A stretch of DNA of 64,000 bases from Rhodospirillales bacterium URHD0017 (lineage in GTDB: Bacteria; Pseudomonadota; Alphaproteobacteria; Reyranellales; Reyranellaceae): positions 434,001 through 498,000 of the forward strand of contig FODP01000002.1 in the NCBI GenBank assembly GCA_900110395.1. The letters run 5' to 3'. Positions 1 through 29,629 of the stretch are shown here, piece after piece. The position numbers and the translations under genes were made by a program. Each line of letters opens with the position of its first letter. Position 1 is the first letter of the stretch. The notes under the pieces are model-generated. The model saw only the letters and a list, made by a program, of their open reading frames with translations, was not told the origin of the DNA and made no database searches.

Positions 1-99
1 TGCATCGGCATCGATCTCGCGGGCCACCAACATGGCCGGATAGACGTGGTGGCAGTTGGGCGGCTGATGGCCGTAATGGCTCCAATATCCTGTGTACAT
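1..99 (-). CDS. small His/Tyr-rich protein, N-terminal part, cut by window edge
   Basis: The first 33 codons of an open frame run off the window edge. The ATG is preceded by a strong AGGAGG ribosome site. The visible peptide begins MYTGYWSHYGH and holds four His, a Cys and several Tyr and Pro, echoing the His-rich starts of other proteins in this run. It follows the 63-residue gene by about 35 nt on the same strand, so it is probably the next gene of the same operon. Function unknown, and the rest is not visible. Confidence 0.55.
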   Translation of the reverse strand, partial: MYTGYWSHYGHQPPNCHHVYPAMLVAREIDADA

Positions 100-133
100 G
101 GCGACCTCCTGAATTGGATGAGGACGCGGGCTC

Positions 134-325
134 TCAAGGCCCGGGAGGCGGGGGTGGCGGCGGCACCGTGATGTCGCGCACGATCTTCAGGGTATCGTTG
201 GTCACCGACAGGCCCGAGCTGACGAAGTTCGTGACCATGTTCGACACTTTGGTCGTGACATCAGCGTCGATCAAACCCTGTGCGGTGTCGTGGATAAGGC
301 TCCTGACGGAATCGAAGAGTGCCAT
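134..325 (-). CDS. small 63-residue protein with amphipathic helices and polyproline tail
   Basis: A 63-residue protein made of one or two predicted amphipathic helices (about residues 3-50, with regularly spaced Val, Leu, Ile and Met) and a C-terminal run of seven prolines ending GP. There is no signal peptide, no clear membrane segment and no cysteine. The start has AGGAAAGG upstream and lies 22 nt after the second flavoprotein gene, so it looks translationally linked to that operon. A helix plus polyproline tail suggests a protein-protein docking element, but this is inference. No family recognised. Confidence 0.6.
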   Translation of the reverse strand: MALFDSVRSLIHDTAQGLIDADVTTKVSNMVTNFVSSGLSVTNDTLKIVRDITVPPPPPPPGP

Positions 326-346
326 GACGTGACCTTTCCTGCGGTT

Positions 347-1801
347 TTAATTCTCCGGTGACGCCACCGCGCGCGGCGCCGAGAGGCGCCGGTCGGCGAA
401 GGTGGCGGCCTTGGTGAGCACCTCGAGCGCCCAGTCGAGCGACGCGCCCGGGCGACGCGCCAGCCCGGCGCCGCCGCGGGCCGCGCTGGCGATGGCTCCG
501 GCCAGAAGGCGCACCGAGCCGGCCGCGACGCTCTTCTTGCTCCTGCTGTTTTCGCGCAGCAGTGCCGCCCAGGCGGCGGGATCCTTGGGCACGGCCTCGG
601 AAAGGGCGCGCACGCTCAGCCAGCTCGACTGGGAGACCACCCCGCTGAAGACGCCGCTGGCGAAGCCGCCGAAACGGGGGTCGGCCTCGCCGAGGGTTCC
701 CACCTGCTCCAGCAGGAACAGCACCAGCTCCTTCAGGCCCGGGTTCTTGGCGAGCGACATGAAGATCTCGGAGGTGCGCCAGTCGGGCTCGCTGTGCGCG
801 CTCCACAGCGCTTCGTAGCGGGCGAGCGCTGCGCGGGAGAAATCGCCGGCGTCGAGCGCAAGGTGGCACGCGTCGGCGGCGTAGAAGGCGCTCTCGATGG
901 CGGTGTGGATGCCGCCACGGTTCAGCGGGTCGGCCTGGCAGGCCGCATCCCCGATCAGGAGCACCCCGTCGGCGGTCATCGCCTCGGGCCTGAAATGGGG
1001 GGCGATGCCGCCGGAGAAGGGCCCGATCCGGCGGGCGTCCGCCAGCGTCACCTTCAGGTCCGAATCGATGAACTGGCGCAGCGCCGAGCCCAGCTTGTCG
1101 GTGGGCGGGAACTTCGGATCGACCGCGCAGCCTACGCCGACACAGGCGGTCTGATGCTCGTCGATGAACATCCAGCCGTAGCTCGGGAAGTAGTCGCGGT
1201 TGAAGTAGACGCGGATACCGGCGTCGCATTTTACGCCGGCGTAGGTGGTGCGCACCGACAAGCCCAGTACCCCGTCCTTCAGGTTGTTGCCGATCGAGCG
1301 CGAGACGACCGAGCTTGCGCCATCCGCGCCGATGACGATGCGCGCACGGTGCTCCACCGTCTTGCGGCCGGTGTCGGCGAACACGCGCACAACCTCGCCA
1401 TCGCGCGCCACGGCGCGGACCGTGGTCCTGCCCGCGAAGCGCGCGCCGGATGCCACGGCATGGGCCTGCATGATCTCGTTGAACCGGCGACGAAGAACCA
1501 GGAGAGCGAAATCCGGATAGCGCGAGTCGTCGGGGAATCGACCGGTCAGCAGATGGCGACCATCGAGATACAGGTCGCAGCCCTTGATGCAGCCCTTGGC
1601 CTCGGCCAAGACCTCGCGAACGCAGCCCAGCCGCTCGAGCCAATAGATCCCCTGAGGCATCAGTCCGTCGCTGCGGACGGTGTCGCGTGGTGGAGCGGAC
1701 TGGTCGATCAGCAGGACGTCGATGCCCTGACGAGCCAGAAGGCTCGCAGCGGCCGATCCGCCGGCCCCGGCCCCCACGACGATGACGTCATGGACGGTCA
1801 T
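347..1801 (-). CDS. FAD-dependent oxidoreductase, geranylgeranyl-reductase type (paralogue B)
   Basis: A 484-residue flavoprotein. The N-terminal dinucleotide fold carries GAGAGG at residues 10-15. A second FAD contact, IGADGAS, lies near residue 160, and the FAD-ribityl motif GDAACQADPLN near residue 285. The substrate-side motif FPSYGWMF matches the P-x-x-Y-x-W-x-F pattern of the geranylgeranyl reductase family. Its ATG overlaps the stop of the upstream paralogue by 4 nt, and the two align along their whole length, so this is a tandem duplication. At residues 41-46, where the paralogue has KVCGDG, this copy reads TVRSDG and so lacks the family Cys-Gly. It probably reduces an isoprenoid chain or a similar hydrophobic substrate; a halogenase- or hydroxylase-like role cannot be excluded. 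Confidence 0.82.
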   Translation of the reverse strand: MTVHDVIVVGAGAGGSAAASLLARQGIDVLLIDQSAPPRDTVRSDGLMPQGIYWLERLGCVREVLAEAKGCIKGCDLYLDGRHLLTGRFPDDSRYPDFALLVLRRRFNEIMQAHAVASGARFAGRTTVRAVARDGEVVRVFADTGRKTVEHRARIVIGADGASSVVSRSIGNNLKDGVLGLSVRTTYAGVKCDAGIRVYFNRDYFPSYGWMFIDEHQTACVGVGCAVDPKFPPTDKLGSALRQFIDSDLKVTLADARRIGPFSGGIAPHFRPEAMTADGVLLIGDAACQADPLNRGGIHTAIESAFYAADACHLALDAGDFSRAALARYEALWSAHSEPDWRTSEIFMSLAKNPGLKELVLFLLEQVGTLGEADPRFGGFASGVFSGVVSQSSWLSVRALSEAVPKDPAAWAALLRENSRSKKSVAAGSVRLLAGAIASAARGGAGLARRPGASLDWALEVLTKAATFADRRLSAPRAVASPEN

Positions 1802-3261
1802 GGCCGCTCTCCTTCCGGCAGAGGCCGGCCGGCCAGGCGGTTGTGCGCGAGCCAGGCGGCCTTGGTCGCCAGATCGAGGCCCCAATCCATGTTGGCGATG
1901 GGATCCTTGGCCATGCTGACAGCCGCCCGTGCGGCGCTGGCCAGGTAGCCAGCGGTGAGGTTGAAGGTCCCGGCGGCGATCTCGCCCCCGACCTCTTGTC
2001 CACTCGCGCGCAGGAGGTCGAGCCAGGCGGCGCGGTCCTTGGGGAAGGCGTGATAGAGGGCGCGGACCGCCAGCCAGGCATCCTGGGAGACGATGCCGGC
2101 GAAGATGCCGCCGGCGAACTCGCGGAACTTGGGGTCGGACATGCTGAGCCGGCCCATGTGGCGCAGCACGAACAGGCCGAAGTCGCTGAGGCTCGGGTTC
2201 TTGGCGATCGACATGAAGAGCTCGGCCGCCCGCCAGTCGGCCTCCCATTGACGGCTCCACAGGTCGGCGTAGCGCCGCATGGAGGCAGCCGAGAAGTCGC
2301 CCTCGGCCAGTGCCGCGCGGCAGGCCTCGGCCGCGCACCAGGCACTCTCCATCGCCTTGTGGATGCCGCCGCCGTTCAGCGGGTCCGCCTGGTTGGCGGC
2401 GTCGCCGATCAGCATGACCCGCGCGGCGGAGATGGACCTCGGCCGGAAGAAGCCGGAGGAGCCGCCGGAAAACGGCCCGCACTGCGTCGCGTCGGCCAGC
2501 ATCTCGGCAAGGTCTTCGGTGATGAAGCGGCGGAAACTTGCCCCCAGATTGTGACGCAGGGGGAAGCGGCGGTCCTTCAGGCAGCCCAGGCCGATGTTGG
2601 CGAAGCCCTCGTCGTCGACGAACAGCCAGCCGTAGCCGGGGAAGTACTCCCGGTCGAAGTAGACCTGCATCCGGGCGCCATCGCAGCGGCAGTCGCGGAA
2701 GTAGGCCCTGAGAGACACGGCCATCACCCCATCCTTGAGGACGTTGCCGATGGCGCGCGAGACGGCTGAGCTGACACCGTCGGCGCCGATGACGATGCGG
2801 CCGCGGTATTCAACTGTCTTGCCCCGACGCTCGCCCGTCACGGTGGCGTGGTCGGAGCCGATCTCGACGTCCCTCACCAACACCTCGTCCCGGAAGTCCG
2901 CGCCGCAATCGACGGCGTGCTCCAGCAGAATGTTGTCGAGCCTGCGGCGGTCCAGAAGGATGGCGAAGTCGGGATAGATGGTGTCGGGGGGATAGCCGCC
3001 GGTCAGCACCTTCTCGCCGTTGATGACGATGTCGGCGCTCTTGATGCAGCCTTTGGTGTAGGCGAGCACCTCGTTCGCGCAGCCCAGGCGGTCGAGCCAA
3101 TAGATGCCCTGAGGGGTAAGCCCGTCGCCGCAGACCTTGTCGCGGGGGAAGGCGGACTTGTCGAGCACCAGCACCTTGGCGTCCTCGCGCGCAAGGAAGG
3201 TCGCGGTGCTCGATCCGCCGGGTCCTGCCCCCACCACGATGACGTCGTAGAGCGTGCTCAT
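1798..3261 (-). CDS. FAD-dependent oxidoreductase, geranylgeranyl-reductase type (paralogue A)
   Basis: A 487-residue flavoprotein of the geranylgeranyl reductase family within the PHBH-fold oxidoreductases. Visible motifs are GAGPGG at residues 11-16, KVCGDG at 42-47, GADG at about 159-162, PGYGWLF at 208-214 and GDAANQADPLNGGG at 286-299. Family members reduce double bonds of geranylgeranyl chains on chlorophyll or archaeal lipids, or oxidise related substrates. About 130 residues follow the usual catalytic core and are shared with the downstream paralogue. The start has GAGGTGAG upstream and lies 15 nt after the 229-residue gene, and the stop overlaps paralogue B as ATGA. Substrate unknown; the isoprenoid-synthase-like gene at the head of the run makes a prenyl substrate attractive. 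Confidence 0.85.
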   Translation of the reverse strand: MSTLYDVIVVGAGPGGSSTATFLAREDAKVLVLDKSAFPRDKVCGDGLTPQGIYWLDRLGCANEVLAYTKGCIKSADIVINGEKVLTGGYPPDTIYPDFAILLDRRRLDNILLEHAVDCGADFRDEVLVRDVEIGSDHATVTGERRGKTVEYRGRIVIGADGVSSAVSRAIGNVLKDGVMAVSLRAYFRDCRCDGARMQVYFDREYFPGYGWLFVDDEGFANIGLGCLKDRRFPLRHNLGASFRRFITEDLAEMLADATQCGPFSGGSSGFFRPRSISAARVMLIGDAANQADPLNGGGIHKAMESAWCAAEACRAALAEGDFSAASMRRYADLWSRQWEADWRAAELFMSIAKNPSLSDFGLFVLRHMGRLSMSDPKFREFAGGIFAGIVSQDAWLAVRALYHAFPKDRAAWLDLLRASGQEVGGEIAAGTFNLTAGYLASAARAAVSMAKDPIANMDWGLDLATKAAWLAHNRLAGRPLPEGERP

Positions 3262-3276
3262 CTAATGCAACTCACC

Positions 3277-3966
3277 TCAAGGCGGAGTCACCACCAGGAT
3301 GACGGGGATGAAGAGGTCCTTGTCCGAGCGAACCACCACGACGCCGCGGTAGACATCGGGCGGGGTCGTCTCGGGCACGACGCCCTTCAGCACGAACTTC
3401 TCGAAATCGACCGGAGCGATGGTCTTCTGTGCCGGCTTGACGGCGAAGGCAGCAGCGTCGATCGCCGCCTGCTGGGACTCGCCGGCGAAGCCCTGCACCT
3501 TGAACTCGACCTTCCTGACATCGGTCACGGAGTCGTTGTTGACCGAGAAGGAGATCTTCACCTCACCGCCCGGCGTGAGCGGCAGCCGGTTGGTCAGGCC
3601 ATACTGGTCGGCCTCGGCGGATTCGTCTGGCGCGTCGGGCGAGAGGCCAGGTGAACCCGGCTGCGCCCCAGGCTGTGTGCCGGGCGGTGCCCCCGCCTGT
3701 GATTGCGCGGCACTGTCCAGGCCCTCGCGGATCTTCTGCTGGGCGGCCAGACTCACCCGGTTGAGGATGGTCACGCCGAGACTGACGCCGGCCTCGGCGA
3801 GGTCGAGCCCCTTGGCGAGGATGGTTCCCATCTGATCAATCCGCTCGCGCAGGTCCACGCCCGCGCCCGGTCCCGGTCCTGATCCCGACGGCGGGGGCGG
3901 CTTTCCGGGGACCTCCGGGCCAGCCGGTCCGGGGTTCCCGTTCGCAGAAGGTGTCTCGCCTGCCAT
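3277..3966 (-). CDS. 229-residue protein: proline-rich head, helix, beta-sandwich-like tail
   Basis: Three parts are visible. Residues 1-35 are Gly/Pro-rich. Residues about 36-90 form an amphipathic helix with many Leu, Ile, Ala and Gly. After a second Pro/Gly linker, residues about 130-229 show alternating hydrophobic strands typical of an Ig-like or CARDB-like sandwich, ending LFIPVILVVTPP. No signal peptide is seen, so it may be cytoplasmic or exported by an unusual route. It starts 1 nt after the stop of the poly-His gene, implying coupled translation. The helix resembles those of the other small proteins in the run. No specific family recognised; a structural or scaffolding role is inferred. 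Confidence 0.65.
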   Translation of the reverse strand: MAGETPSANGNPGPAGPEVPGKPPPPSGSGPGPGAGVDLRERIDQMGTILAKGLDLAEAGVSLGVTILNRVSLAAQQKIREGLDSAAQSQAGAPPGTQPGAQPGSPGLSPDAPDESAEADQYGLTNRLPLTPGGEVKISFSVNNDSVTDVRKVEFKVQGFAGESQQAAIDAAAFAVKPAQKTIAPVDFEKFVLKGVVPETTPPDVYRGVVVVRSDKDLFIPVILVVTPP

Positions 3967-3967
3967 C

Positions 3968-4210
3968 TCAGCAGCCTCCGCAGCGGTAAACCGGCGGCTC
4001 GTAGCAGCAGCGATAGTGATGCCGGACGGGCCCGCAGCCGCACTCCGAGCGGTAGCCTTCGCGGGATTCGCGGAAGGGCGCGCCGATCACCGCGCGGGCG
4101 AGCGAGCCCAGGGTCATGGCCGCAAGGCTCCCGGTCTCGACCAGGGTGGCGAGGTTCTCGCCGAGGGTGACGAGGCGCGAGGGATGATGGTGATGATGGT
4201 GGTGGCGCAT
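3968..4210 (-). CDS. 80-residue protein with natural hepta-histidine N-terminus and Cys-rich C-terminus
   Basis: The protein opens MR followed by seven histidines (residues 3-9). It continues with an amphipathic helix (about 14-43, rich in Leu, Ala, Thr and Gly) and ends with six cysteines at residues 57, 59, 68, 69, 77 and 80 plus a His pair at 64-65. The start has GGAGG about 8 nt upstream and follows the previous stop by 2 nt. The His codons mix CAT and CAC and the frame is embedded in the operon, so it is not a cloning tag. His and Cys clusters at opposite ends suggest binding of Zn, Ni, Cu or Co, or metal-bridged assembly. No family recognised. Confidence 0.65.
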   Translation of the reverse strand: MRHHHHHHHPSRLVTLGENLATLVETGSLAAMTLGSLARAVIGAPFRESREGYRSECGCGPVRHHYRCCYEPPVYRCGGC

Positions 4211-4212
4211 GC

Positions 4213-4851
4213 TCAGCCTCCGTTCACGGCGCTGTCGGCCGCGGGCGCGCGCGTCCCGGCCTGTTGCAGGGCGAAGCCGAAGCGCGGCGCGCCGGCATGG
4301 ACGGCGTGGCGGCGTCCGGGCGGCGGCGCGGCCCGACGGGTCACGGTTTCGGCGCAGGTCTCGATGGCGCGACTCGGGATGGCAGGATTGCCGAGGGCGG
4401 CGACGTCCGGGAAGCTGCGCTCATGGCTCCTGGACTGCTCGCGCCGGGCGCAGTCCTTCGGTGTGATGGTGGTGCGGCCCGAGAGCGAGAGGCGCATCAG
4501 CGGCAGGCCGAGAATGCGCGCCGTCATCGCATAGTCCGAGCACATCTCGAACTGCTGATGAAGGGCCACCGCCACGGGTGGAACCCGCCTCACATTGATG
4601 TCCAGAGCCGGCAGCTGGCTCATCGTCAGGTTTACCGTCGGCAGGCTGGTGATGTTCAGCTGGTCGATCTGCAGGGGATCGACGTGGCGCACGTGGTCGA
4701 CCCTGAGCGACTCCACCGAGAGCGGGGCGACCTGATTCAGCTCCTTCAGGTGCACGGCCATCGGCCTGATGGTCAAGGGATTGACCGTCAGCGGGTTGAT
4801 GTTCAGCGTCTCGATATCGCGGACTTGCTTGATTTTGATGTCCGTAGCCAT
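4213..4851 (-). CDS. 212-residue protein with short repeated beta-like motifs
   Basis: Residues about 5-110 are built from short recurring units of the form (I/L)-x-P-L-x-(V/I), for example NINPLTV, VNPLTI, VAPLSV and VDPLQI, spaced roughly 7-12 residues apart. This could form a small beta-solenoid or stacked strands. A compact segment near 115-145 reads CSDYAMTARILGLP followed by RLSLSGRTTI. The last 60 residues are Arg/Ala/Pro-rich and look disordered. The ATG at 4851 is chosen because AGGGGG lies just upstream; the frame is open further upstream but overlaps the Ig-like gene. No family recognised. A structural or surface-binding role is inferred. Confidence 0.65.
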   Translation of the reverse strand: MATDIKIKQVRDIETLNINPLTVNPLTIRPMAVHLKELNQVAPLSVESLRVDHVRHVDPLQIDQLNITSLPTVNLTMSQLPALDINVRRVPPVAVALHQQFEMCSDYAMTARILGLPLMRLSLSGRTTITPKDCARREQSRSHERSFPDVAALGNPAIPSRAIETCAETVTRRAAPPPGRRHAVHAGAPRFGFALQQAGTRAPAADSAVNGG

Positions 4852-4880
4852 TTTCCCCCTCCGGAGCCGCAGCAGGCGTA

Positions 4881-5585
4881 CTAGATGCCCGGCCAGTCGT
4901 AGTTGAGTTGCAAAACCTTGGCCTCGTCGAACACAGCGTGATTGCTCTGCAGCCGGGCCCTGACGCTGACGACGGCAGCTCCACCGTTTGCCGGCGTCTG
5001 GTAGAGGAACCAGGGTCCGACCACGCCCTGCGGCGCATTGTTCACCAGCCACTCCACCGGAGCGCCGGTGTTGAAGGCGATCGCCTGGAATTGGCAGCGC
5101 TTGTTGCAGCCATCGATCATGTCGTTGTTGGCGCCCTGGCCGTAGTAGAGGTTGATGCGCCGCGGGAAGATGGCCACCTCTGCCGCCTTTGCCGGCTTGG
5201 GGCCGAGGCCCACCAGGGTCACCCACGCGAAGGCCTTGCGCAGCGGATCCTCGCGGGAGCTCGCTATGACCAGCTCGGTTGTCCCGCTGGCAAGCGCGCC
5301 CTTGGGCGGAGCGTGATAGAGGCCCGAGGCGTCGATCGTGCCCTGCCCCGGCCCGCCATTGATGTCACGCACGTCCCAGACGTATCCCTGGCTCGAGTTG
5401 TAGACCTGGGCCTCGAAGCGGACCTGGGTGGTCGCGACGTTGGCGGTCCAGTCGTCGCGGAAGTGGATCTCGGCGCGGGGCGGCCAGACCTCGATCTCGA
5501 CCTGATGACGGCAGACGATGTGATGGTAGACGTCGGTGACCACGCCGCGATGTCGCCCTCGCCTATGGTGATGGACGGGCATCAT
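4881..5585 (-). CDS. 234-residue protein with two Ig-like beta domains and His-rich N-terminus
   Basis: The N-terminus (residues 1-27) is His/Arg-rich with HHH and HH. Residues about 28-125 match a bacterial Ig-like domain: a strand ending YVWDV, then GTIDASGLYHAP and an end strand AFAWVTLVGLG. The ASGLYxAP signature is typical of adhesin and cell-surface Ig-like repeats. Residues about 135-234 form a second beta-rich domain with two Cys near residues 160-164. There is no signal peptide, which is odd for such domains. The double ATG start overlaps the stop of the 121-residue gene. Structural or binding role inferred. Confidence 0.7.
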   Translation of the reverse strand: MMPVHHHRRGRHRGVVTDVYHHIVCRHQVEIEVWPPRAEIHFRDDWTANVATTQVRFEAQVYNSSQGYVWDVRDINGGPGQGTIDASGLYHAPPKGALASGTTELVIASSREDPLRKAFAWVTLVGLGPKPAKAAEVAIFPRRINLYYGQGANNDMIDGCNKRCQFQAIAFNTGAPVEWLVNNAPQGVVGPWFLYQTPANGGAAVVSVRARLQSNHAVFDEAKVLQLNYDWPGI

Positions 5586-5947
5586 TCCGACTTCTCCTTG
5601 CCGGACTTCTCCGAGATCTCGACGGTGGCCTTGCAGGCGCCCTCGACATGAACGTCAACCCCGGACTTCTCGCCGCCGAAGACGCCACGGGTCACCATCT
5701 CGGAGGCTCGGATGCGCGCGTCCACCGGCTTCATGTGCACGCCGAACGGGCCGATCGAGCCCGCCAGCACGCGGCGGCGCAGGAACGGAATGCGCATGTG
5801 AATGGGGATCTCGTCGAAGCGCAGATGGACATCGCCCAGCGCCACCTCGACCGTGCCGCTGGCCGCCACCTCGAACTTGAAGGGATGCACCCGCAAGTGG
5901 GTGGTGAGGTCGGGATGGCCCGCGAAGTCGATCCGCCGATCGGTCAT
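5582..5947 (-). CDS. 121-residue beta-rich hypothetical protein
   Basis: A small protein with alternating hydrophobic strands (residues about 18-60 and 90-112), consistent with a beta barrel or sandwich, and a charged Lys/Glu tail. No signal peptide, membrane segment or cofactor motif is seen, and there is one Cys near residue 105. It overlaps the downstream Ig-like gene by 4 nt and the upstream 64-residue gene by 4 nt, so all three are probably translated together. No family recognised. Confidence 0.6.
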   Translation of the reverse strand: MTDRRIDFAGHPDLTTHLRVHPFKFEVAASGTVEVALGDVHLRFDEIPIHMRIPFLRRRVLAGSIGPFGVHMKPVDARIRASEMVTRGVFGGEKSGVDVHVEGACKATVEISEKSGKEKSE

Positions 5948-6138
5948 GACGCATCCTTTTCGCCAGAGGGGACGCCCTCAGGGAAGACGCGTTGGGCGAG
6001 GTCCGAGAACATGCTGTCGACGGTGTGGTTGAGCTTTTCGAAGCCGGTCAGCGCCTCGACGATCTCAGGGCAGCTGTCGCCTTCTATTTCGATCTTCACC
6101 ATCGGGCCCAGGTTCAACGAGATGCTGATCCTCGCCAT
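5944..6138 (-). CDS. 64-residue hypothetical protein
   Basis: Starts MARISISLNLGP: a strand, a second strand VKIEIEGD, then a helix of about 25 residues (PEIVEALTGFEKLNHTVD and on), giving a simple beta-beta-alpha layout. The ATG at 6138 is preferred over an upstream one because AGGAGG sits 8 nt before it and the longer version would run into the upstream gene. It lies 10 nt after that gene and overlaps the next by 4 nt. Function unknown; possibly a small oligomerising subunit. Confidence 0.6.
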   Translation of the reverse strand: MARISISLNLGPMVKIEIEGDSCPEIVEALTGFEKLNHTVDSMFSDLAQRVFPEGVPSGEKDAS

Positions 6139-6148
6139 GAGCGGCCTC

Positions 6149-6907
6149 CTATTGCGCTTCGTCTTGCCGCGGGCGGGCCGCCGACGGCTCGGCGCTGCGC
6201 GATCCGGCGCCGCGGGTCTGCTCGCCATTGAGGCCGCCCTCGATCTCACGGAGGGCCGCGGCGAGAGTGCCGAGTGAGGTGGTCAGCACGTCCAGGACGC
6301 TCCGCTCACTCTCGTTGACCTCGGCGTAGATCTTCTCGATGCGGCCCCCAAGTGCTGCCCCGGCGCCGCTCTTGCGATACTCCTGGCCACGCTCGCGCAG
6401 GACGCTGCCGAATTGACTGACGATGGACAGAACTCCGTACAACATGTCGACCGTGTGGTCGTCCTGCGGGCGGCCTCCGACGGGCTTGGCCTGGGCCTCG
6501 CCCTGCTTTGCCTCGCCTTGCTGAGCCTCAGGCTTCGTGGACTCGTCCTGCCTGGCTTCTTCGGTCTGCTTGGCCTTTTGCTGCGGCACGGCGTCGGGCT
6601 CTGCCGCCGCAGCGGGCTTGTCCATGGGATTGCAGCGCGGGCAGGCGACGGCCTTGCCCTCCGTCCCGATCTCCCACACGCCGTAAAGGGCCGAGCGCGA
6701 GCTGGGCGGGATCGCCCGGCAGCCGGTGCGGTGAAGCTGTCCCCGCGCCGCGTCGAACTGGAACGGCGCCTGCCGCGCCCGCTCGCTGTTGTCGATCCGC
6801 AGCAGCGGCTGGTCGCTGGCGAGCTTGCCGGAGGCGTGCAGCTCCTGGATCCGCAGGCCGATTGTGTCGATGAGCGCAACGCGGGACGTGGGAATGCCTT
6901 CACTCAT
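6149..6907 (-). CDS. 252-residue protein with Cys/His zinc-ribbon-like site and C-terminal helix
   Basis: Residues about 45-95 hold H59, C63, C89 and C92 (H-x3-C ... C-x2-C), which could bind one zinc. Residues about 96-145 are a low-complexity Lys/Gln/Glu/Ala linker. Residues about 148-220 are predicted helix and coiled coil (DMLYGVLSIVSQFGSVL, then RSVLDVLTTSLGTLAAAL). The start overlaps the end of the isoprenoid-synthase-like gene by 8 nt, so translation is probably coupled. A scaffold or adaptor role would fit the layout. No named family recognised. Confidence 0.62.
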   Translation of the reverse strand: MSEGIPTSRVALIDTIGLRIQELHASGKLASDQPLLRIDNSERARQAPFQFDAARGQLHRTGCRAIPPSSRSALYGVWEIGTEGKAVACPRCNPMDKPAAAAEPDAVPQQKAKQTEEARQDESTKPEAQQGEAKQGEAQAKPVGGRPQDDHTVDMLYGVLSIVSQFGSVLRERGQEYRKSGAGAALGGRIEKIYAEVNESERSVLDVLTTSLGTLAAALREIEGGLNGEQTRGAGSRSAEPSAARPRQDEAQ

Positions 6908-7844
6908 AGATCGCCCAGGGGGAAGCCCCCTTCACCCGCTGTTGGCGATGCTTCTCTATCCTCGTGAGATAGTAACGGGTGAGGAAGGCGATCAGCAGGT
7001 CGCGCCCATCGCCATCCGGCAGCCCCGAGGCCAGTTGGCCGATGTGGGCGTGGAACAGGCGCTTCAACGTGCGCTCGGGGTCGCACACCTGGTTCATGAA
7101 AGTGAGGCGGTTGCTCTTGAGGTCGGACCAGCAGTCACCGTGGTCGTCGATGTACATGATCAGGGCGCCGGCCCAGAACATCCGCGCCAGGTAGTCGAGC
7201 CGCAACTCTGGTAGCAGGAAGGCCGACAGCACCAGGATGGCGTGGCCGCTGCGGTTGCGAGCGCAGCGCTTCAGCATGTTGAGCTGCGCGCGGGCAAGCC
7301 GACGACCGTACTTGCGCGTTGCCCTGAGCTCGACGTCCTGCTTCTGAGCCATGTAGAGCTGCAGCACCGCCTGCCGGACGACAGGGTGCAGAACGTCGCG
7401 CTCGGCGAACAACCTAGCCGCGATCACGAAGAACAGCCGCTCGCGTTCGGTCTTCGGGTCGAACCAGCCCTCGGTCAGCAGCGTGCCCAGCCGCTCGAGG
7501 TAGTCGCGGGTGGCTTCCTCGCCGAAGTCGTCGATGAAGCTGTCGGCCAGGAAGCAGCAGGCACCGAACAGGCTGCCGATCATGTGCCGGCGTTCGTCGT
7601 ACTCGAAGCCGCCGATCTCCGCGCAGGCGTGGCCGACCACGTTCATCTTGGCGCTGAGCTCGAGCATCTTGCGATACTCGTCCTGCTCGCCCTCGAGCAT
7701 CGTCGGGTTGTACTGGCGGACGATCGGCTCGAGGCAATCGCCGACGCCCGCACGGTAGCGCTTGAACAGCGCGTTCAGGCGCTCCTGAGTACGCGGGCCA
7801 GGATCCCATCCTACGGTTGCGGAATGTCCTCCAAGAGGTGCCAT
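6900..7844 (-). CDS. all-helical protein with isoprenoid-synthase-like aspartate motifs
   Basis: A 314-residue, mostly helical protein. Two acidic patches sit where class I isoprenoid synthases bind Mg-diphosphate. One is LADSFIDD, with D101, D105 and D106. The other is YIDDHGDCWSD, with D233, D234, D237 and D241, matching D-D-x-x-D-x-x-x-D of polyprenyl synthases, followed by SNRLTF, which resembles the lysine/threonine segment after that motif. Length and spacing fit a prenyl or terpene synthase fold, but overall similarity to a named family is not obvious. It is the first gene of the run that later encodes two geranylgeranyl-reductase-type flavoproteins, which supports an isoprenoid link. 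The start at 7844 is the best ATG; the frame is open upstream without a better site. Confidence 0.55.
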   Translation of the reverse strand: MAPLGGHSATVGWDPGPRTQERLNALFKRYRAGVGDCLEPIVRQYNPTMLEGEQDEYRKMLELSAKMNVVGHACAEIGGFEYDERRHMIGSLFGACCFLADSFIDDFGEEATRDYLERLGTLLTEGWFDPKTERERLFFVIAARLFAERDVLHPVVRQAVLQLYMAQKQDVELRATRKYGRRLARAQLNMLKRCARNRSGHAILVLSAFLLPELRLDYLARMFWAGALIMYIDDHGDCWSDLKSNRLTFMNQVCDPERTLKRLFHAHIGQLASGLPDGDGRDLLIAFLTRYYLTRIEKHRQQRVKGASPWAIYE

Positions 7845-8163
7845 GGCTCGTGACCTCAACGCGACGACGACCGTAAAGACGCCTGTCACAACCAGAGGAC
7901 GAGTCGGGCAATCGGCCCGGAAACAGCTAAGCCCCCGCCTGCGATCACGATAGTACATGCTAGGGGAGATTGGGCGGGAAGCCCTTTGAAAGGTCACAGT
8001 TTTGCCCCGACGCAGGCGGCCGATACAGCAAATCGTAGCGCTCAAGGTATGCGCGAAAAATCCTTTACGTCGGCGCTCGGGCGATCGGCGCTGCGATCAC
8101 GAGCGAGGCCGACGGGGGAAACAACATCCTTGAAAAGAACGGTGTCGCAGCGATTCTGACGGA
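7845..8163. other. divergent intergenic region, probable promoters for both sides
   Basis: About 320 bases separate the 12-gene minus-strand run from the plus-strand SDR gene. Both sets of genes must be driven from here. I find no clear -35/-10 pair at standard spacing. There is a TACTAT-like -10 candidate on the minus strand near 7951 without a good -35. No coding potential or RNA gene recognised. Confidence 0.4.
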
Positions 8164-9018
8164 ATGACAGGGCGTCTTTTCATTTTCGGCTTGGGCTACT
8201 GTGGCATTGCAATCGCCAAGCTTGCCAGAGCGGCCGGCTGGCGCGTGGCCGGGACCTGTCGGACGGGCGAGAAGGCAGCCGAGCTGACCGAACAGGGCTT
8301 CGAGGCGCATCTGTTCGATGGCATCACGTCACTGCCGGCCCAGGCATTCGGCAAGGCAACGCACGTCCTCTGCACCATCGCTCCCGGCACCACAGGCGAT
8401 CCCGCGCTAAAAACCTCGGCGCACGTGCTGCGCGAGGCGCGCTGGCTGGGCTATCTCTCGACCACCGGCGTCTACGGCGACCATGGCGGCGGATGGGTCG
8501 ACGAAGAAACACCGGCCCGTCCGGCCCAGCCGCGCAGCATCGAGCGGCTGGCGACCGAGCGCGCCTGGCAGGCGATGGGCATGGAGGCAGGCTCGGCCGT
8601 CGACATCTTTCGCCTACCCGGCATCTACGGGCCGGGCCGCAGCGCCATCGACCAGGTGAAGGCCGGAACCGCCCGCCGCATCGACAAGCCGGGCCAGGTC
8701 TTCTCGCGCATCCATGTTGCGGATATCGCGGGCACCGTGCTGCGGGCACTCGGGCAGGCGCGCGCCGGCGCCATCTACAATGTCGCCGACGACCTGCCGG
8801 CTCCGACCGGCGAGGTCGTGGCCTTCGCCTGCGAGCTTTTGGGCAAGCCGGTGCCGCCGGCCGTGCCGTGGGACGAGGCGGCGCCGACCATGAGCGCCAT
8901 GGCGCGGTCCTTCTATGCCGAGAACCGGCGGGTGCGAAACGACAAGATCAAGAAGGAGCTCGGCGTGGCGCTGCGCTATCCGACGTACAAGGAAGGGCTG
9001 CGCGCGATTGCGTCATGA
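8164..9018 (+). CDS. SDR-family NAD(P)-dependent epimerase/reductase, YeeZ-like
   Basis: A 284-residue extended short-chain dehydrogenase-like protein. The nucleotide site FGLGYCGIAIAK at residues 8-19 matches the GxGYxG of YeeZ/UDP-sugar-epimerase relatives. The segment LSTTGVYGDHGG near residue 100 is the expected region before the active site, and RLPGIYGPGR near 155 is a typical extended-SDR substrate segment. The true substrate is unknown; the family includes sugar-nucleotide epimerases and poorly characterised reductases. ACGGA lies just before the ATG. It is transcribed away from the minus-strand run and is not obviously part of a larger operon. Confidence 0.8.
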   Translation: MTGRLFIFGLGYCGIAIAKLARAAGWRVAGTCRTGEKAAELTEQGFEAHLFDGITSLPAQAFGKATHVLCTIAPGTTGDPALKTSAHVLREARWLGYLSTTGVYGDHGGGWVDEETPARPAQPRSIERLATERAWQAMGMEAGSAVDIFRLPGIYGPGRSAIDQVKAGTARRIDKPGQVFSRIHVADIAGTVLRALGQARAGAIYNVADDLPAPTGEVVAFACELLGKPVPPAVPWDEAAPTMSAMARSFYAENRRVRNDKIKKELGVALRYPTYKEGLRAIAS

Positions 9019-23725: not shown

Positions 23726-24115
23726 ATGTTGAGGATCTTTCCGAGACTGATGCTCGTCGTGGGCATCGGCATTACCGGGGCGGCATGCCAGGACGACGGC
23801 TACTCCGCACCGCGCGGCGCCTATCAGCCGGCACCGAACCCGTACTACAACACCGGCTACTACGCGCCCGCACCTGCTCCCGTACGGTATGGCTATGCGC
23901 AGCCTGCGCCGGCTTACTACGGCAATCAGGGTTATTACGGCAATCAGCAGGCGAATTACGGCTCGTACAACCAGGCTGACGGCCGTCGCTATACCTCGGT
24001 GACCGTGACGAACCGCGGCCAGAACGGCAATCGTGACGACGTCGTTCAGCAGCAGGTCGTCTGCGGAAGCCAGTACTACGACGGCTACCGTACCCGCACA
24101 GCACCTCGGTGCTAA
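23726..24115 (+). CDS. small exported Tyr/Asn/Gln-rich protein, possible lipoprotein
   Basis: A 129-residue protein with a signal sequence MLRIFPRLMLVVGIGITGAA before C21. The Cys could be lipid-modified, but the preceding residues GAA are only a loose lipobox. The mature part is rich in Tyr, Asn, Gln, Pro and Gly with YYGNQ repeats, then a basic segment and two Cys near the C-terminus (VVCGS and PRC). The ATG at 23726 is chosen because GGAGG lies 7 nt before it; ATG 23720 is too close to that site. Surface or periplasmic localisation is likely. Function unknown. Confidence 0.65.
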   Translation: MLRIFPRLMLVVGIGITGAACQDDGYSAPRGAYQPAPNPYYNTGYYAPAPAPVRYGYAQPAPAYYGNQGYYGNQQANYGSYNQADGRRYTSVTVTNRGQNGNRDDVVQQQVVCGSQYYDGYRTRTAPRC

Positions 24116-24157
24116 CGCTGCTCCGCGCTATGCGCTATGCAGGGCGAGCCCTGCGTA

Positions 24158-24272
24158 GCGCGTAGTGCAAAGCAGGCCTTGTCCGGCACAGCGCGAAGCA
24201 GGGCTTGTCCTGTGTAGCGCGCAGCGCGAAGGAAGCAGGGCTTGTCCTGCATAGCGCGCAGCGCGAAGCAGG
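24158..24272. repeat. three and a half tandem copies of a 33-37-nt unit
   Basis: Units at 24158-24190, 24191-24223 and 24224-24260 and a partial one at 24261-24272 share GCGCGAAGCAGGGCTTGTCC and similar flanks; the third has a 4-nt insertion. A related copy in inverse orientation lies at 24447-24479, on the other side of the tRNA. The array directly abuts the 3' end of tRNA-Ser. Confidence 0.75.
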
Positions 24273-24277
24273 AAAAA

Positions 24278-24367
24278 TGGCGGACAGGGCGGGATTCGAA
24301 CCCGCGGTGGCTGTTACACCACGCACGCTTTCCAAGCGTGTGCCTTAAACCACTCGGCCACCTGTCC
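24278..24367 (-). tRNA. tRNA-Ser(GGA)
   Basis: The minus-strand sequence starts GGACAGG and ends CCTGTCC, discriminator G and an encoded CCA. The D-arm has GGCCGAGTGGTTTAAGG, the anticodon stem CACGC/GCGTG encloses TTGGAAA (anticodon GGA), there is a long variable arm as in class II tRNAs, and the T-arm has GGTTCGAATCC. It reads UCC and UCU codons. Its 5' half and upstream flank are duplicated at 26361-26441. Confidence 0.96.
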
Positions 24368-24400
24368 TGACCCTCCTGCGCCAAGGCTTCGGAGGGTGAA
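24320..24400. repeat. 81-bp direct repeat, left copy (5' half of tRNA-Ser plus flank)
   Basis: Identical at 79 of 81 positions to 26361-26441. It covers the anticodon arm, D-arm, 5' acceptor strand and 33 nt upstream of tRNA-Ser(GGA), including the hairpin ACCCTCC/GGAGGGT. The two copies enclose about 2 kb with one membrane-protein gene. Confidence 0.85.
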
Positions 24401-24401
24401 A

Positions 24402-25142
24402 TTCGCCGTCCTTATAGCGCGGTAAACAGCCCGGGCAACGGCCATTCCTGCTTCGCGCTACGCAGTACAGGCCCCTGCCCCTGAATCCTTGGCGAGGAGG
24501 CCCCAGTTCAGAGGTGGGGCGCCGCCGCAATACATCGTGCCCATACAGGGCGCTTCGGCGGTCACTTTCGGTAGCAGTGCTACTGGCGCCGGCCTCACCA
24601 AGCCAACATGAGCACGCTGACACCAATGCGTGCCTGATCTATCCCGCTTCGTGATCAAGAGGAAGCACAGTCCATCGATTGTCTGCTCCTGTTAAGCAGG
24701 TCACTCATTATGTGCTGGGCTATTCGACGGCCACTGCTCGTCGCGGCGATCGGTCAGCCGTGCCCCTATTGAGGCGAGCCGATGGTAAGCCCGCGGTCCC
24801 CATCATGGGACCACGTCGGGGCCCGCAAGCGAGGCTGGTCGCTAAGCGACCCTGACGATTGCGCCATCGTCCGCCGTGTCTGCAACAGCGACAAGGGCCA
24901 GCAACTCTACCAGCAGGCCCAACCAGCGCGCGCCTGCCGTGAATTGCATCTATTCCGGCCGTCTGATTTCCTGCACCGGCAACTAGGCCAGCGATCAAGG
25001 CGACGGGCAGCATCTCTATTCGGGCCACTCCCACCATCGCGGACCGCAGTCGGGACGCTCAATCCGGTAGGCGGTTCTACTTTGGGTAGTTTTATGCCAC
25101 CATAGATCGCCTGCAATGGGGTTGCAGGCTAACGGGGGATGG
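24402..25142. other. 740-base stretch without a supported gene
   Basis: It contains an inverted relative of the 33-nt tandem repeat at 24447-24479. Short open frames here (for example minus 24458-24658) lack ribosome sites and recognisable domains. The sequence looks like decayed accessory DNA inside the tRNA-Ser repeat pair. The 3' part must hold the promoter of the membrane-protein gene, but I see no clear -35/-10 pair. Confidence 0.5.
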
Positions 25143-26114
25143 ATGAGCGAAAAACCCAGGGAAAGCACTGAGGGTGTTGCTGAAGCAGCAAGCGCGCCTC
25201 AGCAGACTGCTTCGCGCTTTAAAGAATGGTGGAAGTACCGGCAGCTTTCCATCAATACGCTAGCCTACGCGTGCTTCCTGCTACTGCTGATTATCATCGG
25301 GGGCGCCACACTTGTCGAAATCATATCGCGCGTTTCGATGGCCACTTTCCTTCGAAGCGAGATTGTTTCCCTGCAAGCCTCCTTGGCGCAAGGAGGATCC
25401 GCAACTGCCGCCAGCATAGTGGTCGAACCACCGTCACCGGCCATGACCAATAGGGGGGTTCCAATTCCGCCAACGGTGAACCCACAAAATGAAATTGATC
25501 TGTCGTCGGTGGCATATCGTCAAAGGCGCTTAACCGAAGCGAAAATCCAACTAGCCAAGCTGAACATGCTGTCGGCTGTTGGAACAGTGGGCTTCTGCGA
25601 GTCACTCTGGTTTATTGTCCACGACTTGCGTTCCGTTATAACTGCGTCTTGCCACGGATCTTATTTCAACCCGGCCTACGGCCCCCGTGACGACCTGCTA
25701 ACCGCACTGACAGAATTTAGATCATGGAGTGACGAGGCTCTGTTCCTTGCGTTGGCGATTTGCAGCGGGGCAATTGGGGCGCTAATCGCTGGACTACGTA
25801 CCGTCCAATTCACTCTGTTTCGGGACTTATCCCTCGGCATCGCTTCTGGCTTCATAGTCTATCTTGGTATGAAGGGCGGCAGGCATGTGTTTTTGCTCAA
25901 CGCAACCGAGGGGCCAACTTTGCTCAACCCATATGCTTATGCCTTCGCGGGCATTTTGGTTGGACTGTTTACGGAGAGAGCATACGCGTTGTTGTCTAGT
26001 CTCATAGATGAACTCGAGCATCGCCTGCGGGGAGCTGTCGCGACAAACCCACAAACCACGGCAAATGCCGACGGCGGCATGGCGACTTCGCCACCCAAGC
26101 AACCTGGCATGTAA
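25143..26114 (+). CDS. multi-pass membrane protein of accessory region
   Basis: A 323-residue protein with a hydrophobic segment near residues 36-58 (AYACFLLLLIIIGGATLVEII), a loop of about 100 residues, and about four more hydrophobic segments between residues 150 and 290 (for example ALFLALAICSGAIGALIAG). A short soluble tail follows. The ATG at 25143 follows GGGGGATGG. Base composition is clearly less GC-rich than the housekeeping genes, which together with the flanking tRNA repeats suggests acquisition by transfer. No family recognised; a sensor or effector membrane protein of a mobile region is possible. Confidence 0.7.
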   Translation: MSEKPRESTEGVAEAASAPQQTASRFKEWWKYRQLSINTLAYACFLLLLIIIGGATLVEIISRVSMATFLRSEIVSLQASLAQGGSATAASIVVEPPSPAMTNRGVPIPPTVNPQNEIDLSSVAYRQRRLTEAKIQLAKLNMLSAVGTVGFCESLWFIVHDLRSVITASCHGSYFNPAYGPRDDLLTALTEFRSWSDEALFLALAICSGAIGALIAGLRTVQFTLFRDLSLGIASGFIVYLGMKGGRHVFLLNATEGPTLLNPYAYAFAGILVGLFTERAYALLSSLIDELEHRLRGAVATNPQTTANADGGMATSPPKQPGM

Positions 26115-26360
26115 GCTACATTCTTGGTCGCCCCCACCTAGCCAGCCTTCGGACTAACGCATGAGGCGCACAGCAGCGCGCCACCCATCGCCAGTCGCCG
26201 TCGACTAGCCGTCCGGTATTCACCAACTGCGGCGCACCAAGCCACGCTACTGCTGGTGGCGTTGGCTGATTTCGACTCGTGTAAAAACAGGACAAGATCA
26301 ATCGTTCTTGAGGATACGCCTCCTGAAGCTTGAGGAACTTTCGTCGGTGACACTCTCAAG

Positions 26361-26408
26361 CACGCACGCTTTCGAAGCGTGTACCTTAAACCACTCGGCC
26401 ACCTGTCC
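26361..26408 (-). pseudogene. 5' half of a tRNA-Ser, anticodon CGA
   Basis: About 48 nt corresponding to the 5' acceptor strand, D-arm and anticodon arm of tRNA-Ser. The variable arm, T-arm and 3' acceptor strand are missing, so no functional tRNA can form. It is likely a recombination remnant marking one end of an inserted segment. Confidence 0.75.
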
Positions 26409-26441
26409 TGACCCTCCTGCGCCAAGGCTTCGGAGGGTGAA
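26361..26441. repeat. 81-bp direct repeat, right copy
   Basis: It matches 24320-24400 except at 26374 and 26383. The first change turns the anticodon from GGA to CGA. The sequence loses all similarity to the tRNA immediately beyond the anticodon arm, at 26360. Confidence 0.85.
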
Positions 26442-26530
26442 CCGTGCGGCCCGTCGAGGAACTCGATGATGTGGAAGCCTTCATCCAGCGAGTCGAACAG
26501 TGCCTGATAGCGGTTCGCGGGTGTGCTTAC
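26439..26530 (-). pseudogene. fragment of a PAS-domain signalling protein
   Basis: The minus-strand frame reads NRYQALFDSLDEGFHIIEFLDG, matching the start of PAS domains in histidine kinases and diguanylate cyclases (LFxSxDEGFxIIE). The frame runs straight into the tRNA-derived repeat at 26441, where PAS similarity stops. No start codon, ribosome site or kinase domain is present. It appears to be a gene broken by the event that placed the repeat. Confidence 0.45.
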
Positions 26531-26643
26531 CCTCGCATCACAGCCAGGATGTCACGTGGGACAGCATCTGCATTGCGGAAGCTGCGTGCAAGAACCACGC
26601 GGCGGCGTTTCTCGCTCAGGAATAGGGCTGGGAAGTCGGCCAA

Positions 26644-26691
26644 TTAGCCCAGCAGGACGAACCGCACCCCGGGCCGCGCCACGCCGTTCCC
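26644..26691 (-). pseudogene. duplicate of the 3' end of a gamma-glutamyltransferase gene
   Basis: The frame ends GVARPGVRFVLLG-stop, against GLARSGVRFVLPG-stop at the end of the intact gene at 32749. Only the last dozen codons are similar. A 21-bp stretch (26652-26672) is identical to 32757-32777 in the same orientation and register, with 7 more matching bases after a 2-bp mismatch. Confidence 0.6.
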
Positions 26692-26754
26692 GGCGTCCGG
26701 CCACGGCCGGCATTTCGCACAACGTCGAGGACGTCAGACCCAGCAGGCTGCTTA

Positions 26755-27522
26755 TCAGGTGGAAAGGAGTTCGTCCGATGGATTATTCTGCCGCCATTCG
26801 GCCACCAGGATCAGTTTTTCGGCAGCCAGCCGAAATGCCTTGTTGTACTGACCCTTCTTCAACAATTCCCGGGCGCGCTCCCGAAAAAGCGTGCTCTCGT
26901 TGCGAACAACAAAGATCTTGATCGCCCGCATCACGAACTGCTCGTCAATCAGATTGTGATTCGATTTGTCGAAGACGAACTCGAGATTGTCGATCTCAGT
27001 GTACAGGTACATGTCGACCACTATCTCGGACCCACCGTCCCTTTCAGGGGCCAATCCTGTCAACGCACCAGAGAAAGCTGACTGGACATAGGGTTTAAGT
27101 AGCTTCGAATGCTCCAAGATAAGTGCGTTGGCGGCATCCTTGCGCTTAAGTGCATCATCCACCGTAGTGTTCAATCTTGTACGGCGCCATGTTTGATAGG
27201 CCGCGACGACACCCAGACTGCCAACGGCAAAGGCCGGGATTGCTGTGCCTCCCTTGGACAGCAGATCGAAATAGTAGCATCCAATGAGAAGGACAGCGCT
27301 CGGGATAACAAACGGCACCACTGAGAATCGGAGCGCGTACTTCTCAATATATCGCTCAAGCCTTGACCACCAGTTTCTACGGTCAGGTACAAAACCCAGA
27401 TCAACGAGCAGGTCGTCACGCACATCCTCAAAGCGATCCGCATGCCGGAGAGCGAGGTCCAGTTCCGCCAGCCGCTCGTGATCGCGACGCCGGATATTGT
27501 AGACTTCTTCCGCGATACTCAT
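26755..27522 (-). CDS. membrane protein with two transmembrane segments
   Basis: A 255-residue protein. A charged helical N-terminus (about 1-62) is followed by two hydrophobic segments at about 66-86 (FSVVPFVIPSAVLLIGCYYF) and about 92-110, then a soluble helical domain of about 145 residues ending in charged helices. The layout recalls small two-TM proteins with cytoplasmic sensor or effector domains, but no family is recognised. Its ATG overlaps the methyltransferase stop by 4 nt, so it is the last gene of the island operon. Less GC-rich than the chromosome around it. Confidence 0.7.
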   Translation of the reverse strand: MSIAEEVYNIRRRDHERLAELDLALRHADRFEDVRDDLLVDLGFVPDRRNWWSRLERYIEKYALRFSVVPFVIPSAVLLIGCYYFDLLSKGGTAIPAFAVGSLGVVAAYQTWRRTRLNTTVDDALKRKDAANALILEHSKLLKPYVQSAFSGALTGLAPERDGGSEIVVDMYLYTEIDNLEFVFDKSNHNLIDEQFVMRAIKIFVVRNESTLFRERARELLKKGQYNKAFRLAAEKLILVAEWRQNNPSDELLST

Positions 27523-28481: not shown

Positions 28482-28507
28482 CCTACCGTTCTCCTCACTT
28501 CGCGGCG

Positions 28508-29602: not shown

Positions 29603-29629
29603 GAATGTCCCTCTTGAGCTGACTTCTAC

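Follow-up and report, generated by a model that had tools for sequence, protein, structure and literature searches.

A conserved 14-gene bacterial operon combining probable isoprenoid-type enzymes with small structural-looking proteins

Gene content, conservation, and insertion site

The window is the 64,000-nt stretch of DNA analyzed here, and its bases 7844 down to 1 are filled by 12 genes on one strand. Adjacent genes overlap by 4 to 8 nt or are separated by at most 34 nt, much as the first-pass annotation had described them. The series continues past window base 1 (L003) with N and O, giving an operon of 14 genes. The annotation had counted 8 small proteins between the enzymes; there are actually 7 between A and J, and L and M, with N and O, come after K. 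Its poly-His/Cys type was correct for H, and N and O are likewise Cys-rich. Consensus scans of the minus strand found no promoter-like site, and one terminator-like site beyond O, which is fewer than in shuffled sequences.

Table 1. Features of the operon and its insertion site. Positions are in window bases except where L003 is given, negative numbers lying outside the window. Start codons of C, F, N, and O were picked from orthologue alignments.
Feature	Length	Position	Strand	Description
Right copy of ~53-bp sequence		8115..8167		
A	314 aa	6900..7844	-	probable class I isoprenoid-synthase-like enzyme; predicted helical, DDxx(D/E) motifs at residues 105 and 233
B	252 aa	6149..6907	-	conserved N-terminal H..C...CxxC (zinc-site-like), linker, conserved C-terminal region
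C	64 aa	5944..6138	-	small protein
D	121 aa	5582..5947	-	beta-rich by sequence impression only; orthologue alignment
E	234 aa	4881..5585	-	Ig-like by sequence impression only; alignment
F	212 aa	4213..4851	-	N-terminal hydrophobic-ladder repeats, conserved C-terminal part
H	80 aa	3968..4210	-	6 Cys and 9 His; run of His, hydrophobic middle part, tail rich in Cys
I		3277..3966	-	conserved helix-like stretch (residues ~44-78), C-terminal domain; alignment
J		1798..3261	-	GGR-superfamily flavoprotein by sequence: Cys44, YxWxF-X8-GxG, GGG; long C-terminal part beyond matched region
K		347..1801	-	paralogue of J (53% identity); Arg at active-site Cys position, RGG for GGG
L	63 aa	134..325	-	helix-like, Pro-rich tail
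M	121 aa	1..99, continuing to -266	-	predicted jelly-roll, Cys at C-terminus
N		-280..-846 (outside window)		paralogue of M; 12 Cys
O		-864..-1394 (outside window)		Cys-rich, 14 Cys
Left copy of ~53-bp sequence		L003:11965-12017		

The gene order recurs in a sister MAG, in Caulobacter sp. BK020, in an alphaproteobacterial MAG with a partial copy at contig ends, and in a Fibrobacterota MAG with the copy split over 2 contigs. The order is kept in 5 genomes of 2 phyla, the window's genome counted, and homologues scattered without a conserved neighborhood, the outcome the first-pass annotation had named as fatal to its reading, are not what these genomes contain. Compared with Caulobacter, dN/dS lies between 0.16 and 0.35 for all 14 genes, with C at 0.31 and conserved in all 4 alphaproteobacterial loci, the window's included. 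Because the gene order recurs elsewhere and the dN/dS values are in this range, the operon is not a chance arrangement. I and L have 41% and 35% identity, respectively, to their Fibrobacterota counterparts, B is aligned across orthologues of 4 loci, and H was not detected in locus L013. The distribution is a lower bound because the scan of named genomes used only 6 exact peptide patterns of J; one distribution search scored only 3 candidates per genome. Occurrence of the operon is patchy.

Among congeners, the insertion site is empty in 6 of the 6 examined. A sequence of ~53 bp is single in the empty sites and present at both ends of the insert, the 2 copies in the window's genome having diverged to 83% over 42 bp. 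The 14-gene block has apparently been transferred horizontally between bacteria.

Probable isoprenoid-type enzymes and an isomerase neighbor

The first gene had been singled out for two aspartate-rich motifs like those of prenyl synthases. The motifs are indeed there, DDFGE at residue 105 and DDHGD at residue 233, and their separation of 128 residues falls within the 127 to 138 found in 31/31 reference synthases; two such motifs 115 to 145 apart occur in 98 of 100,000 composition shuffles. The prenyl-synthase connection draws on this spacing and on a weak fold ranking, but not on family matching, profile comparison, or the model. A has no Pfam match at E ≤ 10 and no NCBIfam match, a PF00348 search of its own genome returned 2 other loci and not A, and hhalign of A against 31 prenyl synthases and 26 squalene/phytoene synthases gave p of about 0.5 (the latter set is 26 rows from 30 loci, 3 having given no frame and 1 being too short). 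The AF2 model is helical and of low confidence, with pLDDT 50 and pTM 0.40. Foldseek with this model places isoprenoid enzymes in 30 of the best 50 of 185 rows, none of them significant, with a best E of 0.40 and TM-scores by query length of 0.11 to 0.23, and the best row by VIA with the same low-confidence model is an unrelated chain at Z = 5.0. In 31/31 reference synthases an Arg pair follows within 12 residues of the Asp-rich motif. No such pair follows the first motif in 3 of the 4 copies of A covering the region (the window's own, L011, and L012), and in the fourth, L019, RR directly abuts the motif and so is placed differently from that of the synthases; L013 is without this region. Orthologues of A occur in 4 other genomes, 2 of them truncated at contig ends, and D233, D237, and D241 of the second motif are invariant. 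Judged by its sequence, A is probably a class I isoprenoid-synthase-like enzyme.

Two later genes had been annotated as geranylgeranyl-reductase (GGR)-type flavoproteins, and both do go to that superfamily, although K falls short of the cutoff. Against the NCBIfam model TIGR02032 (GG-red-SF), J scores 193.1 bits where the cutoff is 158.8, and K scores 155 bits, just below it. The active-site cysteine of GGRs is in the FAD domain, at Cys45 in TaGGR and Cys47 in SaGGR, according to PMC6309074. J has Cys44 in the sequence RDKVCGDGL, and in 5/5 loci it keeps this position, the Y, W, and F of the YXWXFP motif, the X8-GxG, and the GGG motif (DPLNGGG), while the P of YXWXFP is replaced by V or A in all 5. 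Family membership was another point on which the first-pass annotation had staked its reading, and J agrees with it in most respects; because that P is absent, J is assigned by sequence to the GGR superfamily and is not filed as a proven GGR. In the Fibrobacterota MAG (L014), an in-frame stop downstream of the Cys44 position interrupts J. The best solved relative of J is the digeranylgeranylglycerophospholipid reductase 3oz2 (E = 2 × 10−37), which we take to be TaGGR. In K, Arg is at the Cys position and RGG is present in 3/3 true K rows, the Caulobacter K having a Cys one residue further on than the active-site position. No archaeal-type lipid genes were recognized in the operon.

In Caulobacter BK020, a type 1 IPP isomerase gene is found 45 nt past O, scoring 164.6 bits to NF002995 (cutoff 127) and 117.1 bits to TIGR02150 (cutoff 105.8). 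It is the only match among 75 genomes of the genus, and such a gene adjoins the operon in this one genome only. This neighbor is an independent isoprenoid link for the operon.

The small proteins

Pfam, searched with all 14 proteins, has matches over the cutoff for J and K and none for the other 12. NCBIfam, scanned with A through K, has no match over the cutoff for the non-flavoprotein genes. PHROGs (10 proteins: A, B, D, E, F, I, and L to O) gave weak matches only, as did PADLOC (10 proteins: A, B, D, E, F, I, J, K, M, and N), where the best was K at 0.00036 over a 30-residue nucleotide-binding stretch, with 5 weaker ones, and B matched at 0.0012 over its linker. B has no family over the cutoff, D has no family, and E has neither a Pfam match over the cutoff nor a PDB sequence match. 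Searching PDB sequences with profiles built for A, E, I, and M/N returned nothing credible, the zinc-finger rows obtained with the M/N profile being put down to Cys-richness. Scanning viral contigs for I, M/N, and A found no relative, nor did plasmid tblastn with A, J (limit 10−30), N, I, and E or phage tblastn with N.

M of the sister MAG is modeled as a jelly-roll with pLDDT 85.9 and pTM 0.75. Fold matches listed for it include the endospore-appendage (Ena) pilin 7a02_A at Z = 7.4 (rmsd 3.5, 101 aligned), in effect tied with nucleoplasmin and other jelly-rolls lying within Z 1 of it, and a viral structure library gave weak, mixed matches only. The predicted M fold resembles Ena pilins without proving kinship. 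In the M/N alignment, a last-strand Cys is present in 8/8 rows, and a CC just before the first strand is in 4/4 rows of N and not in M. As to segments common to operon proteins, beyond J with K and M with N only I with O is suggestive, with a weak similarity at p = 0.0014 among 91 pairs.

The claim that signal peptides are absent holds in that a hydropathy scale gives no obvious one. The most hydrophobic N-termini by this scale, which is not a signal-peptide predictor, are those of J and K at the FAD-binding strand, and a 19-residue hydropathy mean of 1.6 is reached only by I, near its C-terminus. Any assembly would begin in the cytosol, since none of the products carries an obvious signal for export.

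Interpretation and comparison with known systems

Our best explanation, which we hold tentatively, is that this horizontally transferred operon makes a saturated or partly saturated isoprenoid together with a Cys/His-cross-linked protein assembly, reinforced covalently or by metal and made in the cytoplasm, that carries it. A, with its Asp-rich motifs, would build or cyclize a prenyl diphosphate, J would reduce the double bonds of that product with reduced FAD, and K may be the Cys-less partner or regulator of J. The jelly-rolls M, whose fold is predicted with confidence, and N would polymerize into a fiber, ring, or shell, to be cross-linked through disulfides or metal by the Cys-rich O, N, and H, while the helix-containing I, L, O, H, and B might bind lipid or dock the enzymes. 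As did the first-pass annotation, we infer that the operon products form one assembly.

A rather unlikely alternative is a terpenoid natural-product cluster. A would then be a divergent terpene cyclase, with J and K as flavin tailoring enzymes of a reductase, oxygenase, or halogenase-like kind, and the small proteins would serve for scaffolding, storage, or immunity instead of building a structure. J and K do also match flavin halogenase and QhpG-type monooxygenase models, D233-D237-D241 of A are spaced 1-5-9, as in the NSE triad of terpene synthases, and the IPP isomerase beside the Caulobacter copy and the patchy distribution would both suit such a cluster, but A has no terpene-synthase family match, 11 of the 14 genes lack an enzyme family yet are conserved in order, and Pfam recognized no transporter, regulator, P450, or methyltransferase in the operon. 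Decidedly less probable is a structural or appendage operon whose structural proteins are modified by the diverged enzymes A and J/K, for example through oxidation of Cys, Trp, or other residues, with no isoprenoid involved. Flavoproteins of the QhpG and LodB types presumably have proteins as substrates, the matches of J and K include models of QhpG, LodB, and GoxB, and most of the conserved partners are Cys-rich or structural-looking; opposed to this are the GGR-type Cys and GGG of J and its score over the GG-red-SF cutoff, where the NCBIfam QhpG model reaches 100.4 of 240 bits, far below its own cutoff, as well as the Asp-rich motif pair of A and the isomerase gene adjoining the Caulobacter operon. 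An anti-phage or toxin-type mobile island would account for a patchy, horizontally moved block cleanly inserted at one site, but is very improbable given only weak PADLOC matches for the 10 operon proteins scanned and no nuclease, kinase, or sensor recognized in Pfam.

Returning to the isoprenoid-carrying assembly, its most elaborate form would be a new protein-lipid organelle or appendage, with an operon-made hydrogenated isoprenoid packed into or coating a self-assembling, disulfide-linked jelly-roll fiber or shell, the whole transferred as one unit between distant bacteria; we consider this rather unlikely. More generally, the combination of probable enzymes for isoprenoid building and saturation with unnamed small structural proteins hints at an undescribed bacterial structure. 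Most of the proteins are without a Pfam match over the cutoff, yet their order is kept across 2 phyla, with coding constraint wherever it could be counted. If the explanation is right, the operon encodes a bacterial structure in which isoprenoid chemistry is tied to a protein scaffold that assembles itself. In the weaker case there would still be a new isoprenoid-linked enzyme pair, J with the Cys-less K, and a candidate jelly-roll building-block family outside Bacillus. In the portions available of the literature on isoprenoid synthase and GGR operons, encapsulins, and the Caulobacter IPP isomerase, such an operon is apparently undescribed.

A is like the class I isoprenoid synthases, which include polyprenyl and terpene synthases, in being predicted helical and in the synthase-like distance between its two DDxx(D/E) motifs, but it differs in having no sequence-family match and a low-confidence model, and in that the alphaproteobacterial copies covering the region are without the Arg pair after the first motif. 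J is like the archaeal and bacterial geranylgeranyl reductases, such as SaGGR and 3oz2, in its active-site Cys, Y-x-W-x-F-X8-GxG, and GGG, and unlike them in the V or A for P, in a longer C-terminal part, and in being accompanied by a Cys-less paralogue. Family 2B encapsulins carry terpene-cyclase cargo and have in common with our proposed explanation the idea of joining an isoprenoid enzyme and a protein assembly in one operon, whereas the operon proteins here have no shell or capsid match over the cutoff in the library scans. The Ena subunits of Bacillus form disulfide-linked pili, with a Cys pair in the N-terminal connector and a Cys in the last strand. With them M would share a predicted jelly-roll of ~120 residues, a flexible N-terminus, a last-strand Cys, and no obvious signal peptide, and N would share, by alignment, a CC pair just before the first strand. 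M differs from them in having no sequence match and a fold match tied with unrelated jelly-rolls, and M and N differ in their setting, which is in Alphaproteobacteria and Fibrobacterota and beside isoprenoid-type enzymes.

A conserved fourteen-gene operon

The first-pass annotation described a run of 12 tightly spaced genes on one strand, and that layout is borne out. The window is G000:C16:434001-498000, within an 8.18-Mb genome, and neighboring genes in the run overlap by 4-8 nt or are separated by gaps of at most 34 nt. Gene M is truncated by the window edge, and the adjacent DNA adds N and O to the same series, giving 14 genes labeled A, B, C, D, E, F, H, I, J, K, L, M, N, and O. Gene B carries a conserved H..C...C..C pattern, which we take to resemble the metal-site domains of the Ada type.

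Features and their coordinates (L003, locus holding the DNA beyond the window start; L012, Caulobacter sp. BK020 locus)
Feature	Sequence	Coordinates	Strand
Operon genes A to M	window	7844-1	minus
Gene B	window	6149-6907	minus
Empty-site sequence, TPR-gene end	L003	11965-12017	
Empty-site sequence, other end	window	8115-8167	
Inverted stretch in the O-to-TPR gap	L003	12101-12559	
Low-GC region	window	24001-32000	
Type 1 IPP isomerase gene	L012	14781-15335	opposite to operon

The suggested check, whether the gene order recurs in other genomes, gave a positive answer. In the named collection of 84,980 species, a scan for J, one of the two geranylgeranyl reductase (GGR)-type flavoproteins, found at least 4 loci outside the window genome. 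The genes form a conserved 14-gene unit, complete and with order kept in a Rhodospirillales MAG (sister genome G026, J at 94% identity) and in Caulobacter sp. BK020 (J at 83%). Two further copies are partial. An alphaproteobacterial MAG (J at 60%) has these genes on a 5.8-kb contig that begins inside A and stops after J; H was not detected in that stretch. A Chitinivibrionales MAG of the phylum Fibrobacterota (J at 44%, with one in-frame stop) has I, J, L, M, N, and O starting near one contig end, with K absent between J and L, and has A on a separate contig, running off its end, so that an assembly gap probably divides its operon; a search for E in this MAG found nothing. By pairwise counts without a formal test, dN/dS across the 14 genes is 0.16-0.35 against Caulobacter, and 0.09-0.59 against the sister MAG, with D highest and few changes overall. 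This combination of genes and proteins is not described in the family libraries or the open-access literature searched, which does not by itself prove its absence in print.

The empty site and probable horizontal transfer

Searches for A found it in the window genome and one other among 76 genomes of the order, in the window genome only among 385 genomes of the class, and in a single genome among 167 of the Fibrobacterota; J at E <= 1e-40 was found only in the window genome among 398 genomes of its own phylum. The flanking TPR gene was detected in 27 of the 31 genomes of the genus, window genome counted. In all 6 operon-free congeners examined, the TPR and epimerase genes that flank the operon are directly adjacent and divergent, and no operon genes were detected in the stretch between them, which makes this an empty site. 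The starts of these two genes are 10.2 kb apart in the window genome and 10.4 kb apart in the sister MAG. In both, about 53 bp of empty-site sequence stands at each end of the operon, a length that is long for a transposase duplication, and no integrase was recognized among the 14 operon proteins, the set scanned for one. In the gap separating O from the TPR gene, a stretch of about 460 bp containing a 73-aa frame has opposite orientations in the window genome and the sister MAG (89.9% identity), and its ends lack clear inverted repeats.

Against Caulobacter, a member of another order, the operon dS is 0.43-0.72, similar to the 0.29-0.88 that separates the window genome from one congener at seven flanking genes (the eighth, thrB, has no match in that stretch). 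Such similarity is expected under horizontal transfer. Compared with its sister MAG, the window genome has a dS of 0.07-0.20 in the operon and 0.18-0.48 in eight flanking genes. The operon has, if anything, diverged less than its flanks, and hence a single old insertion with plain vertical descent is insufficient by itself. Elsewhere in the window, the low-GC region has a GC of 0.55-0.59 against about 0.63-0.71 in the remainder, suggesting another acquired region.

Gene A and a probable isoprenoid link

The earlier likening of A to prenyl synthases holds for its motifs and not for its family. A is predicted to be helical, and 128 residues separate its DDFGE and DDHGD motifs; the corresponding spacing is 127-138 in a set of 31 alphaproteobacterial prenyl synthases, those of the window genome included. 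Among the best 50 of 185 Foldseek matches to the A model, 30 are prenyl or terpene synthases, several of them chains of one entry, with a best E of 0.40 and TM-scores by query length of 0.11-0.23 from a poor query model. On the other side, A has no family match in Pfam and no signal in profile-profile comparison with prenyl synthases, and the Arg pair that all 31 of those synthases have after the first Asp-rich motif is absent from A of the window genome, the sister MAG, and Caulobacter, and is differently placed in the Chitinivibrionales MAG. Hence, we regard A as probably class I isoprenoid-synthase-like, and do not assign it to the prenyl diphosphate synthase family.

The type 1 IPP isomerase gene of Caulobacter BK020 lies 45 nt past O, and is the single match to the type 1 family in 75 genomes of that genus. 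Its position suggests that a raised isoprenoid supply accompanies the operon, and it is an independent isoprenoid link, with no such gene seen beside the other operon copies examined. In the mechanism we propose, A would carry out isoprenoid chemistry and J would saturate its product, while M, N, O, and H might form a cross-linked assembly and the helix-containing proteins might dock lipid or enzymes.

The flavoproteins and the predicted jelly-roll pair beside known systems

J and K had both been annotated as GGR-type flavoproteins, a description that fits J better than K. J is above the NCBIfam GG-reductase cut-off and K is slightly below it. The solved structure closest to J by sequence is 3oz2, a digeranylgeranylglycerophospholipid reductase, with flavin halogenases next. 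Active GGRs have an active-site Cys, YXWXFP then GXG, and GGG, as described in PMC6309074. At 5 of 5 loci J shares with them the Cys, Y-x-W-x-F, G-x-G, and GGG, with V or A replacing the P of YXWXFP. K lacks the Cys and GGG, having Arg at the Cys position and RGG in 3 of 3, with a Cys one residue on in the Caulobacter K. J is a GGR-superfamily reductase that, judged by these motifs, retains most of the known redox machinery, which K appears to have lost.

M and N are paralogs (hhalign E 1.8e-12). The sister-MAG M, 96% identical to the window M, is confidently predicted to be an eight-stranded jelly-roll except for its first 17 residues (pLDDT 85.9, pTM 0.75), making M and N a predicted jelly-roll pair. 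Its fold neighbors among the matches listed include nucleoplasmins and Bacillus endospore appendage (Ena) pilins. The VIA rows listed have Z from 8.4 to 6.5, with Ena1B in mid-range at 7.4, and Foldseek gives M no match at E 0.001 or better, and for these reasons the modeled M-Ena match points to no more than a shared type of fold. Across 91 pairs of operon proteins, I and O show weak similarity over one segment (p 0.0014). Beyond the fold, 8 of 8 rows of the M/N alignment carry a last-strand Cys, N has a CC pair ahead of the first strand, neither M nor N has an obvious export signal, and N, O, and H have high Cys counts; these are suggestive extras when set beside the Ena pili, in which, according to PMC12921279, such Cys join the subunits together.
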